NCBI GenBank assembly: GCA_009869945.1
Contig: WIXG01000052.1
Span: forward strand, 186,001-250,000
Length of the DNA: 64,000 nucleotides
Source of the DNA: Mesaphorura yosii
Taxonomy: Eukaryota; Arthropoda; Collembola; Poduromorpha; Tullbergiidae
Reading direction: 5' to 3'
Shown here: piece by piece, positions 16,242 through 64,000 of the stretch
How positions within the stretch are numbered: position 1 is the stretch's first letter
Layout: every line of letters starts with the position of its first letter
The notes under the pieces: model-generated
Told to the model about the DNA's origin: nothing
What the model saw: only the letters and a program-made list of their open reading frames with translations
Database searches by the model: none
Made by a program: the position numbers and the translations under genes

Positions 16242-16622
16242 ATGGTTTAATGTAGAAATTGTTTCAGATTTGGCTTTGATTTACTTGAAGGATTGCCTTT
16301 TGTTGAACTTCGAGAGTCATGAACAGGAGAGGCTCGCCGTTTTTCTAGGAAGTCGTGTTCACATTTCCCCTTCGACTGGTCGCTCTTATTTCTGTCATCA
16401 TGGCAATGCTGATGATCATTTTGTATGGAGCTGATATTCTGAGTTATCTGGATGCATGGAGTGCCAAATGACACAAAGTATTTCTATCACCCAGTTTATG
16501 TACGATGTCACCCAGGATGTACGCGATCTTGTACAAAATTCGGGCTTGAGTACAACTTCGAATTCATTAAAGTCCATTAGCTTCAAACCCAAGCAGCTGA
16601 ATGGACCATAAATCAATCAAAT

Positions 16623-19600
16623 ATGATGTCTGGGAAAGCTACCACCTCCGACCACGAGAATCAACTGCCCGGAAAATTCGGGTTGCATCGGGACTCCCAC
16701 AATATAACCCGTATGGTCATATTGTCAATGCCCCTTTATGAACGTAACGCAAAAATCGATAACGCCTTAATCACGATTGTTTTAACAGTGATGTCGAAGC
16801 CGAGGAAGTACGAGATTTGCGTAGCAGGAAGCTTCCTCTTCGTTACTTATTCCGCTATGCAAGCTGGAGTGATTATTGCCTCATGTTTGTGGGGCTGGTC
16901 GCTGCAGTTGCTTGCGCAGGGACATTTCCGATCCTAATTAACAGGTGACTTTCATATCAATGGTCCACTTGTCATAGAAGCATGAGTACATCATTTTCAG
17001 GCAGGGAGAAATTCTACACCGTGGTTTGGAAGTGCAGCGTTGCGCCAAGTTGACAAAGTACGAGTACAGTCGCAATCGACCCTTTTCGTTTGTTTGAAGT
17101 GCATTACTTAAATCGGTATTCTTCTGTTTAGTAATACTCGTTACGCCGACACAATTCCTGGGTATCCTGAGTCCATATTTTCCTGGTTCCTGACGACCGC
17201 GGAGCTGTTTTTGTTGTACCTGCTCACGAGCGTTCTATTTGTCATATGCTTCGCTTTGGCAGCGGAAAATCAGGTACGCTACAGAACGCAGAAGTTAATT
17301 AGGCTTAACTTTCAGTTGCCTTAATCTCAGATCAGCCAGTTGCGTATCACGTATTTCGAAGCGCTAGTCCGAAAGGATATGTCTTGGCTCGACAATTTCG
17401 TGGAAAGAGAATTTGGACGACACATGACGCAGTGAGTTTCTAATTTGATGATGAAGCACACGTTTGTGGACTCTCATGTCTCAAGAAGGTGGTTTCATTT
17501 TTAGCGACATAACCCAGATTCGTTCCGCGATTGGAGAGAAGCTTTCCTATGTTGTGTACGTGATAGTTGTAATTATTGGGCTCCTGGCAGCGGCAATTGT
17601 GCAACAATGGAAAATAACATTGATCGTGCTTGTGCTGGGACCAATTTTGTCATGTAAGCCAGAAAGCAGAACTGCAGGTTGTGCCTTAAGTTGTCAGATC
17701 CTTAATGTTTTGACTACGACCAGTTATTGGCTACATCAGCGCAGCGGCTGAGAATCGCGAAGCGAGGTATGTAGAAGGTGTAACCACGAATTCGAGTATC
17801 ATGGCAGAAGAAACGTTTGCAAATATCAAGACAGTTAAAGTGTACGAAGGCGAGAAGAAGGAAGTCGAGAAGTTTGAGAGCGCTTTGAACTCAGAGTTTG
17901 GGTGGAAATGGTTTCTGTTACCTGGAAGCGCTGGAATCACGAGCCTTGTGCTTTACGTGAGCTTCGCCATCATCTTTTATTTCGGGAGTAGCATTGTTTG
18001 GCTGGACTTGCAAGACGCCAGAGCATGCAACCAGCACGATACCATGGGATGGGATGGCCCAGAAGATCTGTTTGTGGTCTTTTTCTGCGTGTTCTATGCC
18101 TCGCTTCATATATACGAATTACCCACATTGGTCAGCCAGCTTCGGAACGCCACGAAGGTTGCGTCTGAAGTGTTCTTCATGATCGACTGGTAAATTCATC
18201 CATAATCATTTTTCGGATTTCTGTTTCCAGGTTTTTTATTAGAAGGGTATATTGTGAAGGAAACCTAGAATTGACAATATGGCGCTCACTGGAGACTTGC
18301 CCGACAGTGGCGTCATTGGAAAGATCGAGTTTGAGAACGTAAGCTTTCGGTATCCAAGAAAACCTGGACGCGCTGCACTCAACAACATTAAACTGGTCAT
18401 TCATCCGGGGCAAGTAAGAGTTTCTCTGCTTCAAAAGCTGGGACAAACTTAAACCCATGAGGATTCTTATGCGACGTTTGAATATGCGCAGGTCGTTGCG
18501 TTCGTTGGCCCGATGGCGTGTGGCAAAACCACGATTCTCCATTTGATTCAGAGGCTTTACGATCCGACTGCCGGAAACGTAAGGAACCAAAGGGGCATAT
18601 TGTGACTTAACAATGCGTACGGCTACCATAGCATCATTTAACGTGATCATGTTTTCTTGCTTCCAGGTGTACATCGATGGTCACAATATTGAGAATTTGA
18701 ACATCCAATGGCTGAGGATGCATACGGCAAAGGTGTCGCAAGAACCGGTACTATTTAACAAGTCGGTTGAAGAAAACGTGCGCTACGCCAAATGGTCAGC
18801 AAGTTCTGCGGAAGTTCAGCAAGCTTGCATCAAGGCTGGAATTCACGATGACATAATGCAACTCAAGAACGTGAGCCACGCATGATGTGCTTTTGTTTCC
18901 AAGAATCTGCGAGTTTTGTACGTAGTGAATTGTATTGCGCCAGGGCTACCAAACGATAGTTGGACAATCAGGCAGCCTCCTCAACACGAGTCAGAAGCGT
19001 CAATTGTCGTTCGCGCGTGCATACTTGCAAACCCCTAAGATTCTGCTTCTGGATGATCCGATAGCCGGCTGCGTGCCGGAATTCGAAGACTTGGTTCTTC
19101 GAGTCATCACACAATTGCGAGATCGCACAACAATCGTATTGGCCTCGTCGGTCATCAACTCACTTGTTCAACATTGTGATAGAATTTATTGCATGGAGAA
19201 AGGATCGGTAAATCTAAAAGATATTGCTGGCATTTGCCTTCATTTGACATTATGCAATTGTTGTTCTATGCTCAGATCCTAGAACACGGGAATCATGAAG
19301 AGTTAATGGCTCTTGGAGGTCACTACGTTGATTTGAAAAATAGCACGGGATCAGGAGTGGGTATGACAATCATCGGATGTCGTTTTAGAAAAACATGCGT
19401 GTGTGCGTCTCAAGCACGATCATAATTTCAGAACAAAGCAAGTTCATTTCCCAGCTCACGTCGTACCGGTTTGCCCAGTCGCTTCGTCGAATGCATTTGC
19501 GGAAGGCAAAAGCGTCACATCATGCCCGACAGAAGTCCCATGGAAATATTAACCCAAACGACGCTAGTTACGTGGAAGCGGGGAATCATGCACTGGTAAG

Positions 19601-22600
19601 AATGATAAGAAACAAAATTGCATAGTTTAATGCGAGATGCAACACTAAACTATGCACCTTTTGAAGCAACATGACAGACGTGTCAAAATAAACCAGGCAA
19701 TTGTTCTGAGAGTGGCTGGAGGCTTGCAACGTTGCAACTACACACGGACACAGACAAATACCATTGGTAAGAACTTCCACAAGTCTTTAAATTATGTTCA
19801 GCCCTATTATTTAAATTCTGTCATGCTTTTCCAGCAAACATTCGACGAAATCTTACCAAAGCTGTCAAGAAAGTGAAACATGAAATGGGTTCGTAATCAT
19901 GAAATTATGAGATCGTTATTGCTCTTTCGGAAAGGAAAGAATTAGTGTCATGATATTTTGCAGGGCTCCAGCATGAACTGCTGGACACTAACCAGACTGT
20001 TGCCTCTCTCTTTGCGACTAAAATGCGGCACCAAAGAGAGTCATTCTCAGTTCAGTATGACCATGTGGCACTTATGCGGCCGAGGTCAAGGGCTGGTTCA
20101 AAGAGTTCAAATGACTCAGGCGGTGTGCATTGTAAGTCTCGAATCTCTCTCTTCGATGACTCATAAATAAAATCTGGCGCATGTCCCACAGTAGTTGACG
20201 AAGATAGAAAGTCCATCGAATTGACCATTGCAAGTGTGAAGTCCGAAGATTCCTTAATTTTCTGGGCGGATTACGAGGAAATGTTGGATAATTTGGTATG
20301 ACAAACAATATGAATGCAATTCACTGTGTCGAGATTAGAAGTAATCGCATGCTTTTTCAGGAAGGCGCGCATTCGATGATTTCATGGAAAGACTTGTTCC
20401 GGTTAGGGCTGGCGGAGTGGAAGTTCGTGTTAGCATGCATGATAAGCTCGATTACTCTTGGTTGTTGTACACCCTTTTACTCCATTATCTTCGACGACAT
20501 ATTCGATGTGGGGCCAAGTTTATTTCTTTACTCACGTTCAATGACAACTTATTGTCGTTGTTGCTTAATTTGATCTTCTGTCGGCCCTTACAGGCGTTCA
20601 TAATTGAAAGGCAGAAGGATTCGGCAGAGAAAACATTACGGGACTGCACGTATTTGGTGATCTTGGGCGTGGTTTCTGGAGTATTCGCATTTATGCAGGT
20701 TGGAGTTTGTTTTCAAAGAATTTTACTTGGTCATTTTCGGTTCCTTTTCATTCGTCTTACTTTTGCACACAGGAACTAGTTTGCAGCTACGGCGGCTTCA
20801 AAATGGTTAAACACTTGCGCAGCAAATTATTTGCTCATATTTTGAAGCAAGACCAAGAATGGTTTGACAGGCCGGAGAACGATGTTAGCTTCCTTTGTGC
20901 AAGATTGTCAACCGACACGACATTGATTGGAAACGTAAGTTCGGTCGTGCTGCCTGTTGTGACTTTTGTTTCGAGGGATTCATTGAACTCCATCTCGTCA
21001 GGTTTTAATTTTGTCACTGGCATCGCTCACCCAAAGCTTTACCTCGTTAATTCTGGCAATTTATCTCGCCTTCCAACTGCAAGGAGTCCAAGTCGTTGCG
21101 GCATGTACATTGGGCATGGGACTCTTGTTACTCGTTATCATCTACGCTGACGCATGGTTCCAGAAAGAATTTGAATGGATCACGGACATCAAAGCGTTGG
21201 ATGATGCGACTGAAGTCGGTTCGCCAAGTATGTCACTCATTTATAATTAACGTTTATAATTGAAATTCTTAGATTGAAATCGATGTCATTACTAATGTCC
21301 GCACCGTCATCACGCTGGGGCTGGAAGCACATTTTCTGAAGCTGTTCAAGAAGGAAATCCGTAAATCCAAAAGGTAAGGGTGAGCTGTGAAAAATATTAA
21401 GTTGAACAAACCAACATACTAAAATCTTGTTCTTTGCTGTTCATACAGAAAATTATTTGGCATGAATGTATTGAGGTCACTCCTTTTTGGGTTGGCAAGT
21501 GCACTGCCCTACGGACTGTTCAGTGCTTCAGTGTACATCTTTTATCTGGAGAAAAAATTTGAACCAAGATTCGCTGAGATTTTAGCGTAAGGCCCGTGCA
21601 GTCAGGTGACTGTCACGACAACTTTGATGTACTCTTTACAAAATCTGTACTTCAGAGTGACGGGACTACTAATTTTCGGAATTATTCCAATTGGAACAGC
21701 CCTTGCTCTGTTACCCAACACATCGCTGAGTCTCGCAGCGGCCTACCGTGTTAATAAAATATTTTCATCTAAACCAAAGCCTGAACGTCTTGCACCATCA
21801 GGATCCGAAGTTCCAAAGCCGGTACTTGAAAACTATGGACGTTTAGCACTTTTCGGCCAGACTCTTCAACATAACGGAATTATTGCATTCACAGATGAAC
21901 TTCGAACTTGCTCCCAAAATCGAGCTCAAGGAAGTCCAATTCAATTTTAATTCCAATTCTAGTATTCAGTATTCCATGCTGCGCGGCATAAGTGTTATTG
22001 CGGATTCAGAGAATAAAATTGCCGTGATCGGACCTCCAGCATGTGGGAAATCTTCCGTGATTCAATTGCTGTTGGGCCTTTATGATCCCACCGGCGGAAC
22101 AATTGTAAGCCTGCGATGAACCTCGAAGAACTTAATTTTTAAAGCGTATGAATTGAATTCTAGCTCGTGGATGACACAGAGTTTAAGAAAATTGATATTA
22201 TGTCACTGCGGCGAATTACTTCATACGTTGAGCAGAACCCAGCCATTTTTGATTGCACAGTCACTGAAAATATTGCGTATGGAGATAATTCTCGAGAAGT
22301 GCCGATACATGAAATACATCAAGCTGCCAAGCTTGCCTATGCTCATGAAGAGATTATCCGTCTGCCAGAGGTACAGAATTTCTCGTGGCGCTGGGTTGTG
22401 AAAATGACGATATAACTGCTATTGCTATTTGCTTCACCGACTACAGGGCTACGACACACAAATATCTTCACTGGACTCATTTCAGGAACATTCGTTTGGT
22501 CTAAGGCAGCGAATTGTGTTCGCTCGTGCCATACTGCGAGATCCGAAAGTGATCCTCATTGATGAGTCCACAGCGTCCGTTGTAAGGCTCCGAAGTCCTA

Positions 22601-23438
22601 AATTGACGTCAAACAACATGTAACGTTAATGTTAATACGCATATCGTTCCAGGATCCTCAGTCGGACCTATTGCTGTTGAAGACACTGGACGAATGTTGT
22701 ATCGGGCGCACTACGATTATAGCCTCACAGCGAATTGAGCCTATCCGCAACGCTGACCTGATCATTGTGATCAAGAACGGGCAGATAATTGAGAAAGGCA
22801 CGGACCGCGAGCTCATTGAATACCGAGGCGAATACTTTCACATGTACATGACTCAGAGGGAGGCGGAGGGATTTTCAACTGAGCCAGAGGAGCTGGAATA
22901 CGGGAACGAAATAGAAAGATACTACCAGCGGGTGAGTACTCCTGCAACGCCAACTGATGCCGACGGAGGCACGGGTCGAAGAAAATCATCCCTGCAGTAC
23001 CTCAACTACCTGAAGAACAGACTAATTTACATACCACAACCTCGTCGGGGGTCCAACATTAGCATCAGCGACTTCCTTGGCCGGGAGACTAGTGTCACCA
23101 GTGAAATGATGGCGGAGTACAGCGACTTCATCACCGCAACTGAAAGAACAATGGACACCCCAAAGAAGGGTCAAACTAGTCAAGCACCAAAGCGTACCTC
23201 GCAAGGTCAGCGTTTCCTGAAGAGTCTCAAAACATTGAAATTAACGGATTCGGATTCTCATGAATCAGTGGACAGTGAACCTTCCATGTCACCCGAACAC
23301 TCGTTTGAGTTAAACCTCAACTCTGATGAACCCATGACAAATCTTGTCACTGGCAATTCTGCTACAGCACAGGCTCAGTCTGCGTTGGACAAGAAAAAGA
23401 AGAATGCTCACTCCAAATCACAGACTGCTAGGAAATGA
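16623..23438 (+). CDS. Divergent ABCB (P-glycoprotein-like) full transporter with degenerate nucleotide-binding domains
   Basis: Architecture TMD1-NBD1-linker-TMD2-NBD2-tail, about 1,600 residues against ~1,280 for usual P-glycoproteins. Core exons: 16789-16944, 17001-17057, 17132-17273, 17331-17431, 17505-17653, 17724-18189, 18260-18413, 18492-18578, 18667-18870, 18944-19207, 19276-19360, 19432-19595, 19697-19766, 19835-19888, 19964-20131, 20192-20295, 20361-20507, 20594-20698, 20773-20934, 21002-21214, 21273-21373, 21449-21586, 21656-21821, 21895-22104, 22164-22370, 22447-22581, 22653-23438; all phases agree. The first exon (start at 16623 or 16626) has an uncertain donor. TMDs are intact (TM1 DYCLMFVGLVAAVACAG; ICL motif HILKQDQEWFDRPEND). 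NBD1: Walker A GPMACGKTT, Q-loop SQEP, but LNTSQ for LSGGQ, LLLDDP for LLLDEA, Ser for the H-loop His. NBD2: Walker A GPPACGKSS, Walker B VILIDES intact, but HSFGL for LSGGQ and Gln for the H-loop His. The linker is ~187 aa and the tail ~185 aa. Membrane protein; substrate unknown, ATP hydrolysis doubtful. Confidence 0.92.
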
Positions 23439-23838
23439 ATGGTGTGATTGGGTACATTCAAGCAAAGATAATACATGACATCGATAACAATCCTTTACTG
23501 AAAACGTACAGTTTGCAAAGGCCTGCATTGTGTGAACTCCAAACATTTCTTGCAATTCATAACCGCATATTGGCACATACATCACTGTACTTTGACTTCG
23601 TTACTATTACTTAATCTGCGTGTGACTTAGAGGGTACTAGGCACTTTAATACTAACTAATTGCGGTCTTGGTCTACATATTAACATAATTGAATAATAGT
23701 ATAAAATTGTACGAAACGAGAAGATTTCAGATTTAAGTAAGCATTCCTTGATTTTAGCTCTATTATGTATTCAAAACCTATGTATAAAGCTGACGATACT
23801 TTCCTCTGTACGAAGACTAGTCACTAAGACTAGTTTGG
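23439..23838. other. Convergent 3' ends of the ABCB-like gene and PPP2R3
   Basis: 400 bp between the two facing stop codons, AT-rich, presumably both 3' UTRs. No other feature seen. Confidence 0.6.
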
Positions 23839-51809: not shown

Positions 51810-52970
51810 ATGCCAAAGAAATATCCGAGAGAAGTCGAGGTAGTAGTAAAAGAACTTTCTAGGCAGGTGTTAGTCAAAATATCATGAAAGAGCAGGTCGA
51901 GGCACTTGGATTCACGATCAGTTCACGAACCATAACCCGTATGATCAATTACGATGGAAAAAGACACGAAGCAAAGGGTCAAGGTTACGCACCGCAAAAG
52001 CGTCAACCAAGAACAATGAGATCAAAAGCGGCCATATGCCAGGTCAAGCACCGACAAGTAGAACCCTCCTACCCAGTCCTACATGGCAGAACGCCTGGGA
52101 ACATCTAGAAGAACGGTTCAGGCCATAATTAAGGAAGATTTCAAGAAAAACGCCAGCAAGAAGACCAAGGTCCACGTCCTAGCTGAATCGCACAAAGCAA
52201 ACAGGCAAAGAAATGCCGGAAACTTTACGAGGAGCATCTCGCCGGCGATAAGTGGGAGTACATGGTCACGCTGGACGAAGCCTGGATATACTTGTCTACA
52301 TGCGATGGCCGAAGCAAGATTTGCTACGTCCGAGAAAGAGAGAGTGCCTGACGAGTTCGTGTACGAGAAGGACGGCTATGCCAACAACAATAAAAAGTTC
52401 ATGATCGTGACTGCAATAAGTGGTCGTGGCGTGCTGGGACTAATTCAGGTCCCCATAAAGGTGGAGATTAGTTCCACCTTCTATGTAGAGGAGTGCCTAA
52501 AACCACTATTGAAAGTCGAAGTCCCAAAGTCGTATGCAGGAGAATAGCACAAAGTCTACGTGCATCACGATAAAACCACGTCGCATAAGTCTAGGCAAAC
52601 AGATGCTTATGCAGCCGAGCTGGAGTCGAAATTTGGAATAAAAATAATCCCGAAGCAAGATATCCCTGTCAAGTATCCAGATATTAGCCTTCTTGAGTTT
52701 TTAGGGTTTGGATACCTCAAGCAGAAGCTCATCTCGCACCATGTCAATTCGCTTCGAGGATTATGGAAAGTCTTGCAACAGGAGTGGAACTCAATATCCG
52801 TCGAAACAATTCAAACCGAGTGCGACTCATGGAACGGACGTCTACGCATGGTAGACCAGATGGGTGGAGGTCATGTTGAACGAACTAAACTTATTCTCAA
52901 GCGTCGTTTGTACGATCTACTTCGATTAAAACCGATCAGCCAAATAGAGGTCGCAGCCCTAATATCTTGA
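51810..52970 (+). mobile_element. Decayed Tc1/mariner-superfamily transposase
   Basis: Reading begins with MPKKYPREVEVVVKEL at 51810 and continues through at least three frames: 51884-52108 (HTH-like, TISSRTITRMINYDGKR), 52083-52547 (AERLGTSRRTVQAIIKEDF, a second HTH-like helix) and 52560-52970. The first catalytic Asp lies in VTLDEAWIYL (about 52265-52294), in a different frame from the surrounding open frame. The second is in HHDKTTSH (Asp at 52569) and the third in VKYPDISLLEFLGFGYLKQ (Asp at 52680), giving 36 residues between the last two acidic residues. The signature and the C-terminal LK..L motif place it in the IS630-Tc1-mariner group of the DDD type. Stops and frameshifts make it non-functional. 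I could not find terminal inverted repeats, so the element's true ends are unknown. Confidence 0.85.
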
Positions 52971-58784: not shown

Positions 58785-61700
58785 CTAGTTCTTGGTCACA
58801 ACTTCGCATTTTCCTCGAACACATACCGTCGTCTCAACCGCAACGCTTGACTCCATGCGAATCTGTTTCTTGGGTGCCTGCGCTGAACCCGCTCCGACAA
58901 CCACAGCCGACGAGGGACTGGCCGTCGATGGTGGCTCCGGCGTTGAAGCGGCAGGCACTGGCACAGACGCTGCTGCTGCCTCGAGCGGATTCACCGCAGC
59001 GACGCTTGCTGGCGCTGGTGCTGAAAGGGCTAAGGACTCAATGTTTGGAAGCGGGTACTGCTGGTACGGAATTGGTACACTATTCGCATTGCTACTACTG
59101 CTATAACTATTTTGGCTATTGTAATTATTGTTATTGTAATAATAGTCGCTGTTCGATGTGTCTGGATTATAATTATAACTATTATAATAAGGTTCGTTTG
59201 GATACGCGTTTGGTTGAGTCAGCTTCCACTGCGCTGTGTCACCGGTGCGTACAAGTTTTAATTTCCTGCGACCGGAAGAAGATGGGGATAACGACGAAGA
59301 CGCCGGACTCAATGGTGTTGGCTCAGGCGATGTGCCATTGATTTGATCAAGAACTTGGAGAGCGCCTAAAAGGATTCCACACGTATTAGTGTCAAGTCAT
59401 TACAAGTTTCTCACCCATATGAAGGTTTACCTGCAGCGTCCACTGCACCAATTCGCTTAGCCAAGCTATTGGATTCGAACAGATTCTCTAATGGAAGCTG
59501 CGAGCCAGCTGGTATTCCGGTGGCTGTGGCTGGATCGGTAACACCTGGACGCTTTCTACGAACTACTCTAATCTTTGTTTTGCCAGCCAACTTGACTGAC
59601 GGATTGAATGGCGAGCCCGCGCCGTTGTCCTCACTGAGGACAGTTCCGTTGTTCTTGAGAATCCGCCTTCGAACCCACAACGGCTTCTGCGGCACAACGA
59701 TTGGCTTCTTCGTGCCGAAAGTAGTTGTGTAGACTGGCGATGGTGGCAGGGTTGGCTGCTCACTTGTGGTCGCGACCGTAGCGCTTGTGGTGGGCACCGT
59801 TTCTTTGACCAGCGACTGAACTTGAGGCAAAACGTAAGTCACGGGCTTCATGGTTCTGATAGTTGGTCGGAAAGGCTTCCGAGTAGTCGGCGCCGCAGTG
59901 GTTGTTGTAATTTTAGTCGCATTCTTTGGGTTTGGTTTCAGAAATGGCTTGCCAGTTGGACGAGGTGTGAACTTATTAATCACGACAGGTTTTTTGGTTG
60001 TCGTCGTCGTGGGTTTAGTGATGGTTGGCCTCTGAAACTTATTCACTGGGGCCTTTGTGGGTGTGGGCTTGACCGGTTTCCTGGTTGTTGGTGTCACTTT
60101 GGGTTTCTGGTCCTTCGCAGCTGTCTTTACCGGCTTTGCAGTAGCTTTTGTTGAGGTCGCTGGATTTTTAGATTTCTTCTTGTCCTTCACACTGGTCTTA
60201 GAAGCCTTCTTCTTGCTGACCTTCTTGGGCTTCTTTGTCGTGGTCGTGGTTGATCTCGACTTCGTACGTAAGAACTCACCTGAGCCTGAGTCAAAGTAGT
60301 CGTCGTACAGTTCATCGGACGAGAATCGTGAAGACAATTTCTTGAGAAGTTGTTTCAGATCACTTATGTCGTAATCTTCCTCGTGAGATGTGGAGTTGGC
60401 AGTGTTGTTGGCTGTCGCGATCGAAGCCACTGTTGTTGTCACTGTGGTCGGTCTCGTTGTTGGTGCGGCTGTCGTTCTCCTGGTCGTGGTCGTAGTTGGC
60501 TTGGTCGTGGTCGTGAACACTTTCTTCGTAGGCTTTACGATCAGTGGCTTGAAAGTCTTCTTTGTTGTTGGTTTCTTTGTCATGCTGGTTGTAGTTGTTC
60601 TGACGGTGGTAGTCGGCACTGTCGCATCGTCGTCAACGAACCCAGTCTTCTTCACGACTGACTTGGAGTCGGTCAAGAATGAGCCGATGTTATCCTTCAG
60701 TTTGCTGTTTGTGTTTCCAAGCAGCGACATGCCGGCGAGTTTCTTGGACAGAAGTCCATTGGTAATGTGCCCAGCTCCGTTGCTTGAAGACCCTGCTCCA
60801 GCTATTACTCCTGTTTTGCGGAATGGATCTCTCACTTCAGATGAAATGAACTTCTTTTTCTGTTCGCGTTCATCCTCTTCATCGCTACCTTCGCCGGACA
60901 GCATGAACATGTCAGGGCTCATGTGATCTGGTCTTGGCAAGTTGTCATGAGCTTGAGCTTGACCGACGCCTGCACCGGCGTGCTCGTCGTGTTCAGCCTC
61001 CCCGTGCTCCTGCTCTGGTTCGTCTTCTGCCTCCTCTTGATCTTCATTTTCCTGGTCTTGAGTCTCCTCCGGGGAAGTCTCCTTCGATTGCTCTTTTGCC
61101 TGTGACGCATTTATATTGTTCGCATTGCCTGAGCTCACTTCTACTTTGGTAACAGACACCGAAGAAGTCGAAGTGACAGGATTCGCAGCTAGCGCCGGTG
61201 TCTGCGCGTTCTGAACCTGCTCAGTTGCACTTGCATTTTGTGACTGGAGTCCCACCTGACTAATTTTACTGCCTTGTTGCAACACTTGAGGAACCTGAAG
61301 TCCTTGTGGGCCTTGAATGGAGAAAGGCTGCTGCTGCATTTGTTGCATTTGATTCATCATATTCGGGTAGAATTGACCGCCGTTGTTCATGAACTGTCCC
61401 ATCATGGGCTGCTGCTGACTCTGGAACATGTTATTGCCCATGGAGTAGAATCCTTGGTTCGGATTGACAAATTGGGACTGTGCGTCCAATCCCTGCTGCT
61501 GATTTTGCATGGGATTCATGAGATTGTTCGGATAGTACTGTGGCTGGAAGGCATTGTTGTTACTGAATTGTCCTCCTTGCAAAATTCGGTTGCGGAACTG
61601 TGACTGCTGCATCTGCTGCTGTTGCTGGTCCATGCTCTGAGCCGCCTGGATGGCCTGCATCGTGTTGGGCTGAGCCTGGACAGCAATTGCCTGTGGTCGG

Positions 61701-64000
61701 TGAGGCAGGATTTGAGTCAGAATCGGCTGGAATCCGTGGATCATAATAGTTGCTGGAGGCTGAACTTGGGTGTCAGTCGAAGCAGCGGCTTGCTGGGCTA
61801 CTTGTTGTTGTTGCTGCTGCTGCTGTGGAATCTCGTTGACAAACTGAGACTGCATTACTTGACCTCCAAATGGCGTCTCAAACTGCCCTGGCTGAACTTC
61901 GAGCGAACTGAGGTCGACCATTTGCTGTTGGTACTGTTGCTGGTCAATGCTGGACTGCTCCGCATTTTCAGGGTACATTTCAGCTCCATTCGAGTCGAAC
62001 TCTTGACCGCCTGGATTTTGCACGTAGTTTGCATTGGTTTGGTCAACGACTCCGTCCGTGCCCATCTCCATCTGAGACCCGGTCGCGACTTGATCTGGAG
62101 GTTGTTGATACTGCTGCTGTTGTGACTGTGACTGTTCCTTACTGCTCGTGGCCCGTTGTTGAGGTTCACTTGCTTGCTGCTCCTGAGCCTGTTGTCCTTC
62201 CTCAACGGTGGCCTCCTCGCTGCTGCTCGTTTCGTACTCTGGAGTCTGGGTTGTTGTGGTGGTGGTTCTTCGTCTCAGTCCCTTTCGCTTCTTTTTAACT
62301 GGCAACTCGGTAGACGGAGTCGGTATAGTTGTTGTGGTGGTTGTGGGCTCGGGAGTGGTGGTAGTTGTAGTCGTCGTGGTTGTGGTCGTGCGTACACGTT
62401 TCCTCGTCTTGTAGTCCACTTGGAACATTGGCTTCAGTTCATAGTCCTCATCCTGCTCGTCGCTGGTGCTGGCGAACTTGTTAATCTTTCGTCTTCTCGC
62501 TGGTAGAGGCGATGAAGGACGCGGCGGCTCGGTGACTTCCTCCTTGGGCTTGAAGTCTTCCTGTGATTCCTCGGACGTGTCTTCGTCGTAATATGCCTTT
62601 GGCCTTTGAGTAGTCGTGGTGGTTGGGTCCGTCTGTACCGGACGCTGACGCCTGCGGTACGGTCGTCGTTCCTCAGGATAGTCCTCGTCTGGCACTCTGA
62701 ATTTCTTCTGGGGAACTCTTGGCTTTTGTCTGCCACGCTTTGGAGGCGAGAATGCTGGGTGGCTGTCGTCAATATCCTCAGGCAGCACCGATTTGGAAGG
62801 CTCTTTGCTTCTGTACGAATCTTCAATGTCGTCGTAGATTTCTTTCGTGATTGGCAGTCCGTCATCATCGTACTCTGAACTGGGCAGCTCGTCAACTGGC
62901 ATCGGCGTTGTAGTCGTGGTCGTTGGCCGTGTTCTGTACCTGTGTCGTCTGTTGAGCCCGCCCTTTTGCACGTAGATCGGGATCAATTTCTTCGAGTCAC
63001 CTTCCGCGTTGAAATTGGTTCCTGGTGGAATACGGAACTTGCTTCTGTAGCGGGGTCTGACCGGTCTGGCGCTGGTTGAGTCAACACCATCCAGCTGGTC
63101 GTGCTCATACTTATCTCGGTCATCAGCTGCGTTGTTCAACGACGCAGTACCATACCAGTGATCGTAGTAGCTCTTTTCGGTGGGTTTGAAGTAGGACGGA
63201 GTGACGGTCATGTATGGAGAGGATCCATGCAACGGCCCAGGCGTCACGTACATCGTGTTATGATGGTAGAGAGGCATCATTCCCGGTGGTGGTGGAGCAT
63301 GCATACCGCCGTTTGTCATGGCGTACAGCACAGACGCTCCCACGTCTTTCTGGGGCACGTGAGTGTTCTCAGGCCACCTGTGCGAAGGGTGATGTGGAAG
63401 TCCAGCCATCACGGCGTGCAGGGAATTGGCTCCAACGTTCGATGCCAGCACCCGTTCAGCTGAGGTCACGTAACTGGCCGGCTCAGGTTCAGTTGTCTTA
63501 GAGGATGGAGCCTTAGTAGGGCGCCATGTGATTGGCTTGTCTTCTGCGCTCACACTAACGCCTTCCGTCGTGCTTGTTCCTGCAGAAGACGGCTCAGTGC
63601 TTGCCCAAGTCGAAGTCGAAGTAACCGAAACTGGTGTGGTTGTCGGGCCCTCAGTCGATGATGTAGCTCCTACGGCACCTTCTTTTGAGCTTGGTTCCTT
63701 CTTTTCTGAGGACGAAGCAGGTCGTTTTGTGCTGTGAACGAATTGTTCCCACTGTGGGGCGGCTTCATGCTCGTGACCGTAGTCGCCTGCCTCGTGGTGG
63801 CTCTGCGGCTGAGACGCTTCCTTCTCGCCCAGACCCAAAATATCATGATGGCCCACGGGCGCCGGAGTTGAACTCGGGAAGAAGAGCAGACGCTCGTCGG
63901 TCAATACTGAATCTGGGTCGGATGCTACGGACTCTGAGAAACTGGTGCTCGTCGAGCTCGGGAAAAACATGAGTTTCTCTTCGCTGGACTTGCTGCGGGG
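58785..64000 (-). CDS. Long Thr/Gln-rich mucin-like protein, 3' part; runs off the right edge
   Basis: Not assigned to a named family. Two exons are visible, 64000-59431 and 59365-58785, joined by a 65-bp GT..AG intron in phase, giving about 1,716 residues with the N-terminus beyond the window (an in-frame ATG at 63970 is preceded by open codons). Order along the protein: an acidic/Ser region with a repeated FFPSST motif; Pro/His stretches; RRxRP-rich and PT-rich segments with long Thr runs; a Gln/Asn/Met-rich block (about 62.2-61.2 kb) with poly-Gln; an acidic Glu/Asp block (about 61.1 kb); a second Thr/Lys-rich block (about 60.6-59.8 kb, repeated TTTTTKKP-like units); and an Asn/Tyr-rich C-terminal exon (NYNPDTSNSDYYYNNNN) ending in a small Cys pair (VCVRGKCEVV). 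Composition fits an extracellular mucin or cuticle/apical-matrix protein; no chitin-binding or ZP domain is seen in this part. Confidence is high that it is coding, low on function. Confidence 0.85.

Follow-up and report, generated by a model that had tools for sequence, protein, structure and literature searches.

A springtail P-glycoprotein-type ABCB with both ATP sites altered, and paralogues altered in the same way

Our study reports on a full-length ABCB-type gene (16601..23438, forward strand) in a 64,000-nucleotide stretch of the Mesaphorura yosii genome, referred to here as the window (contig WIXG01000052.1, or C52, positions 186001-250000, in an assembly of 93.0 Mb in 1127 contigs). 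Both composite ATP sites of the encoded protein are altered and the reading frame is intact. On balance, this gene probably encodes a functional, lineage-specific derivative of the P-glycoprotein-type ABCBs, one that would bind ATP, hydrolyse it poorly or not at all, and not act as a pump. The window gene is not alone in this condition: of 11 P-glycoprotein-type ABCBs that we modelled in the genome, five are without both canonical signatures, and the trees indicate that such genes arose at least three times.

Pfam finds two ABC_membrane and two ABC_tran stretches in the window protein, in the order transmembrane domain (TMD), nucleotide-binding domain (NBD), TMD, NBD, and the top PDB matches are ABCB4 and ABCB1, then ABCB11 (among the best 60 of 534 matched sequences). 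TMD1 (16844..18260), in which six transmembrane segments are discerned by eye, precedes an NBD1 that keeps its Walker A (GPMACGKT, 18507..18530) and Q-loop (VSQEP, 18733..18747); TMD2 (20397..21764) precedes an NBD2 that also keeps both (GPPACGKS, 22030..22053; VEQNP, 22227..22241), and the aromatic A-loop residue is present in each domain, as Tyr in NBD1 and Phe in NBD2. Our motif table places the changes elsewhere. The NBD1 signature reads LNTSQ in place of LSGGQ (18980..18994), its Walker B has Asp for the catalytic Glu (ILLLDD, 19040..19057), the D-loop is replaced by IAGCVPE (19061..19081), and the H-loop His is Ser, with two extra residues directly after the motif (TTIVLASS, 19127..19150). 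The NBD2 signature is HSFGL (22489..22503), which retains the Ser and one Gly of LSGGQ and lies just downstream of a two-residue insertion in the alignment with PDB sequences; Walker B keeps its Glu (VILIDE, 22549..22566), the D-loop (ASVD) is near normal, and the H-loop His is Gln (TTIIASQ, 22710..22730). An earlier, sequence-only reading of this DNA had listed the two TMDs, the Walker A motifs and Q-loops, both replaced signatures, the two switch His substitutions and the Asp in NBD1, all of which Pfam and the motif table bear out; the NBD1 D-loop that it called absent has indeed lost its canonical form and is more precisely described as replaced.

Arranged as composite nucleotide-binding sites (NBS), these residues give an NBS1, formed by the NBD1 Walker A and the NBD2 signature, in which Glu has become Asp, His has become Ser and the opposing signature is HSFGL, and an NBS2 in which Walker A and Glu are kept, with Gln for the H-loop His and LNTSQ opposite. 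By these motifs neither composite site is intact and NBS1 is the more strongly altered, in agreement with the earlier claim that both are compromised. Efficient hydrolysis requires the catalytic Glu and the H-loop His, according to excerpts of one study, which also state that ABCB1 given a degenerate, ABCB11-like NBS1 still transports (PMC7544095). The window protein keeps Walker A, Q-loop and an aromatic A-loop residue in both NBDs, as well as the Asp of Walker B, and each NBD would bind ATP singly; since both composite sites are impaired, we expect ATP-driven closure of the dimer and hydrolysis to fall short of what a pump cycle needs.

The exons of the gene were defined by a hand model and a spliced aligner. 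The hand model has 28 exons and 1634 codons without a stop, and its introns, of 56-101 bases, are all GT-AG; the aligner, fed with the window protein, returned the same 28 exons, which is a consistency check only. The first automatic gene-finder models were dropped, two of them being faulty, with zero-length and skipped exons. The ATG at 16601 is preferred because exon 1 then reaches the donor 16710|GTATGG in the correct phase; a start at 16623, as first read, requires a weaker donor at 16723 (GTCAAT) and is a possible alternative. Both starts were predicted, and the choice between them does not affect the remaining model. The sequence-only reading had thus given 27 exons and a start that fits its donor less well, and its end at 23438 and its intact, in-phase frame stand. 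Two further donors are weak, those of exons 18 (GTGGGG) and 21 (GTCGGT), and both lie at shared intron positions. Comparison with ten paralogues showed that 14 of the 27 introns match at least one of them in alignment column (within 2) and phase; the other 13 (introns 1-3, 6, 8, 12-17, 24 and 27) match none. The exon carrying the NBD1 signature and H-loop is flanked on either side by introns common to paralogues, and for the NBD2 signature exon this holds of the upstream intron and not of the downstream one. The possibility that misassigned exons hide canonical motifs, which had been raised as a check, was examined by scanning positions 16501-23500 in six frames for loose patterns of three kinds, like LSGGQ, AHR or SALD, and this gave no match.

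Two regions of the window protein have no counterpart of similar length in its relatives. The linker between NBD1 and TMD2 (19351..20396) has 202 residues, against 42-89 in the ten paralogues, and introns 12-17, which match no paralogue, lie inside it; a PDB search for a known domain in it gave no good match (best E 0.053). The C-terminal tail (22866..23435) has 190 residues, against 4-15 in five paralogues read to the first stop with introns ignored, and contains RRKSS, RRGS and KRTS; four matches to [RK][RK]x[ST] were counted there, two of them overlapping, where 5000 shuffles gave a mean of 0.79 (p 0.0068). Codon preference averages 0.25 log2 units and is alike in linker exons 13-17, the tail and the other exons, compared with -0.11 for the best frame of the introns.

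The 11 ABCBs are the P-glycoprotein-type loci modelled (the window gene and ten others) rather than the genome total, since classification of the remaining ABC loci is incomplete. Signatures and H-loops are canonical in five of them (C512, C67, C149, C377 and C56d), one is part-way and five have lost both signatures; four of these last five have also lost both H-loop His residues. The numbers of candidates scored in the genome searches behind this set were 19 of 228, 76 of 137, 29 of 146, 99 of 99 and 70 of 132, and the paralogue models are template-guided and end where the template ends. C149 is a slightly faulty canonical row, its model skipping part of the NBD1 Walker B and D-loop, where the DNA reads LLLDE; C37 was aligned, resembles a half transporter and was excluded. 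The search with the window protein gave no second copy of the gene among the 29 of 146 candidates scored, the other loci there being 21-43% identical to it. The part-way gene, C56c, has LSTSQ with the His kept in NBD1, and LTGGQ with Ser for His in NBD2. Besides the window gene, both signatures are lost in C341, C820, C56a and C56b. C341 reads LTREQ and LSIRE, with Ser for the NBD1 Glu and the NBD2 Glu kept, Asp and Arg at the H-loops, and Lys for the NBD2 Q-loop Gln. C820 reads LSTSA and LPRGT, with Asp and Ala for the two Glu residues, Asn at both H-loops, and an NBD2 Walker A in which Lys is replaced by Gly, with an insertion. In C56a the NBD1 signature is unrecognisable and that of NBD2 is LSRGK, the Glu residues are Asp and Ser, the H-loops have Ser and Lys, and the NBD2 Walker A Lys is again Gly. 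C56b reads PLNDR and LSRGK; it keeps the NBD1 Glu and His, and in NBD2 has Gly for the Walker A Lys, Ser for Glu and Arg for His.

The four C56 genes form a tandem array on one strand, at about C56:268400-292200, and with d canonical, c part-way, and b and a altered in both signatures they provide a natural series for studying the loss of ATP sites. NBS2 is the most broken site in C820 (locus L069) and in C56a and C56b (L068/L070/L055), in which the NBD2 Walker A Lys is Gly; this is the reverse of the human pattern, in which full-length proteins have one degenerate site, always NBS1, and NBS2 is the active ATPase (excerpts of PMC7756269). NBS1 of C56b, which keeps Glu and His and faces LSRGK, is near the ABCB11 changes given in the part of PMC7544095 available.

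The five double-loss genes were grouped by motif before any tree was built, and the grouping was tested after the full tree had been seen; the trees contained ABCBs only. The window gene is sister to the canonical C377 in the full tree (97/97), in a tree built without the NBDs (793 columns; 95/97) and in the NBD-free tree without C341 (94/94), and its loss is therefore derived. In the NBD-free tree, C56a, C56b and C820 form a clade (100/100), and C341 falls next to C56d, at a fork left open. One shared origin for all five genes was rejected on that tree by 94 log units (approximately unbiased test, p-AU 0.0008); forcing the window gene and C341 together was rejected as well (p-AU 0.0003), as was forcing the five together with C56c (p-AU 5e-5). 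The minimum number of changes is three when signatures are counted and four when both H-loops are counted too. As far as these trees go, several ABCBs of this genome took the same road independently.

The C56a, C56b and C820 clade also bears on what follows such a loss. All three have lost the NBD2 Walker A Lys and have both signatures altered, and from their sequences it is very likely that their ancestor had already undergone these changes; since C56b keeps the NBD1 His, C820 and C56a may have lost it afterwards. Pairwise, their proportions of nonsynonymous differences (pN) are 0.37-0.43 and of synonymous differences (pS) 0.75-0.81, the latter saturated, and the proteins are 39-45% identical. 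With synonymous sites saturated and that much protein identity left, constraint on these genes continued once the shared loss had occurred.

For the window gene, the argument turns on what a neutrally drifting frame could survive. The five canonical genes all agree at 242 columns, and the window gene differs from them at 92 of these, 71 of 181 within the NBDs and 21 of 61 elsewhere. Neutral change at that rate over 1230 shared codons would bring about 588 missense changes and about 33 stops (P ~4e-15), and comparison with the paralogues thus shows that most of the divergence of the window gene took place while its frame was kept. A control within the NBDs, in which one canonical paralogue at a time was left out, used 188-215 columns; the paralogue differs at 7-34 of them and the window gene at 74-89. 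The earlier inference of selection for a non-canonical role is strengthened by the expected number of stops, by the codon preference of linker and tail and by the constraint on the sister genes; it had treated as isolated a case that recurs in five of the 11 ABCBs with at least three origins.

From these observations, we propose that the window protein would most likely serve in the membrane as a nucleotide sensor or a kind of scaffold, or perhaps as a gated pathway, and that control would have moved to its own additions, the 202-residue linker and the 190-residue tail with basic kinase-type sites. Any particular non-pumping role, be it sensor, scaffold, gated pathway, channel or regulator, is one that the protein may have. 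A bolder version, which we put forward as a doubtful though not idle conjecture, is that this lineage repeatedly made ABCB pseudo-transporters with both ATP sites disabled, and that the window gene, with its added linker and phospho-tail, has become a regulator that senses nucleotides, or else a gated pathway, and would be a second CFTR- or SUR-like invention, made independently from an ABCB.

Several points weigh against a constrained, non-pumping protein. The branch of the window gene is very long, at 1.67-2.01 changes per column across trees (1.91 in the NBD-free tree, against 1.76 for C341), which fits relaxed constraint as well as new function, and with both of these branches long, exact placement is unsure. 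Synonymous sites are saturated or nearly so in each of the nine pairs computed, including those of the window gene, and no ratio of nonsynonymous to synonymous change (dN/dS) against its paralogues is claimed; with its pairs saturated and no close relative here, the argument for selection on it is indirect. Outside the NBDs, its 21 of 61 changed columns are not unusual beside 37 of 98 for a left-out C377 and 46 of 107 for C56d, so that the excess of change lies in the NBDs, and this control slightly lowers our confidence. The linker has no [RK][RK]x[ST] site. Finally, with Walker A, Q-loop Gln and Glu kept, some hydrolysis at NBS2 is possible.

That last point is the core of the idea that the protein is a slow but active exporter, running on NBS2 alone with an unusual signature in the manner of the one-site-degenerate exporters, and in NBD2 the Walker A, the Q-loop and the Glu are indeed retained, as is the greater part of the D-loop. 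In NBS2, nevertheless, the H-loop His is Gln and the opposing signature is LNTSQ, the comparable LNVEQ of Pdr5 sits in the degenerate site of that protein (excerpts of PMC7756269), and C341, C820 and C56a are changed at both sites too; we regard such an exporter as unlikely. The long branch, the many changed invariant sites and the two weak donors are also what a recently dead or dying gene with a still unbroken frame would present. The changes far exceed what a neutral frame survives, however, linker, tail and the other exons alike retain their codon preference, and the NBDs have changed less than the remainder of the protein (pN 0.42 against 0.55 in comparison with C512); a last, short neutral phase is possible, and a gene on its way out seems to us quite improbable.

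A gated, non-pumping channel of the CFTR kind, in which a regulatory stretch joins NBD1 to TMD2, would account for the position of the long linker, which is where CFTR has its regulatory domain, and for the Ser at the H-loop of NBS1, a residue that NBD1 of CFTR also has. The closest solved sequences are full ABCBs, though, CFTR retains one working site, and the lack of basic kinase sites speaks against a linker phosphorylated in the CFTR style; we give this explanation very little probability. That the degeneracy is an error of gene model or assembly, wrong exons hiding canonical motifs, might be argued from exons computed from DNA alone, from the two weak donors and from the 13 introns common to no paralogue. 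The six-frame scan, the shared introns flanking the NBD1 motif exon and preceding the NBD2 motif exon, and the same kind of change at loci on other contigs make such an error extremely improbable.

Elsewhere in the window, a Ribosomal_S19 gene lies upstream of the ABCB gene. Two same-frame stretches split by a stop at 52062-52970 look by eye like a Tc1/mariner-type transposase, and Pfam gives weak helix-turn-helix matches only. Base composition shifts at 60000-64000 (GC 0.50-0.55, AT skew about -0.3), where both strands carry long frames that look by eye to be of low complexity. Neither Rfam nor a tRNA scan gave a match in the window. There are 66 matches to Chitin_bind_4, a family that marks arthropods and their kin, consistent with an arthropod. 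The genome also has ABC genes with few introns, at C328 (L011), C144, C704, C610 and C539, with open frames of 1149-1301 residues, of which C328 resembles ABCC/MRP by eye; the modelled ABCBs have 9-28 exons.

The window gene and its sister genes add to the known degeneracy of ABC proteins, and their repeated origin makes the case more interesting. Full-length ABCBs altered at both sites in one genome, with at least three origins and with one group that stayed under constraint, would demonstrate that the ABC exporter fold can be of use when normal ATPase activity is missing, and such proteins are natural material for asking what ATP binding alone does. In the open-licence literature searched, as far as its accessible text goes, we found no description of doubly degenerate full-length ABCBs, and a search of the literature on tardigrade ABC proteins gave nothing pertinent.

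Among known systems, the closest are the P-glycoprotein-type full ABCBs (ABCB1, ABCB4, pgp-1), with which the window protein shares the TMD-NBD-TMD-NBD order, Walker A, Q-loop, Walker B Asp and its best PDB matches, and from which it differs in both signatures, both H-loop His residues, the long linker and the long tail. SUR1 (ABCC8), a regulator of the KATP channel, offers the likeness of an ABC protein serving as a nucleotide-sensing regulator, and differs in being an ABCC with an extra domain. In the one-site-degenerate exporters (ABCB11, ABCC1, TAP, Pdr5), as in the window protein, NBS1 has lost its Glu and the opposite signature is altered, and LNTSQ resembles the LNVEQ given for Pdr5 in excerpts of PMC7756269; their other site works, whereas NBS2 of the window protein is altered too, by the H-loop Gln and LNTSQ. 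CFTR (ABCC7), in the sources available in part, is an ABC protein that is a channel, with a degenerate NBS1 and an insert between NBD1 and TMD2, and a regulatory domain at this position is said in the same excerpts to be unique to CFTR (PMC7756269). Among the best 60 of 534 PDB matches of the window protein, CFTR occurs only as a depositor's label on Sav1866 (2hyd), giving no sign of kinship to ABCC/CFTR; CFTR belongs to the ABCC family and has a phosphorylated insert, whereas the window gene is kin to the ABCBs and has its basic kinase-type sites in the tail only.

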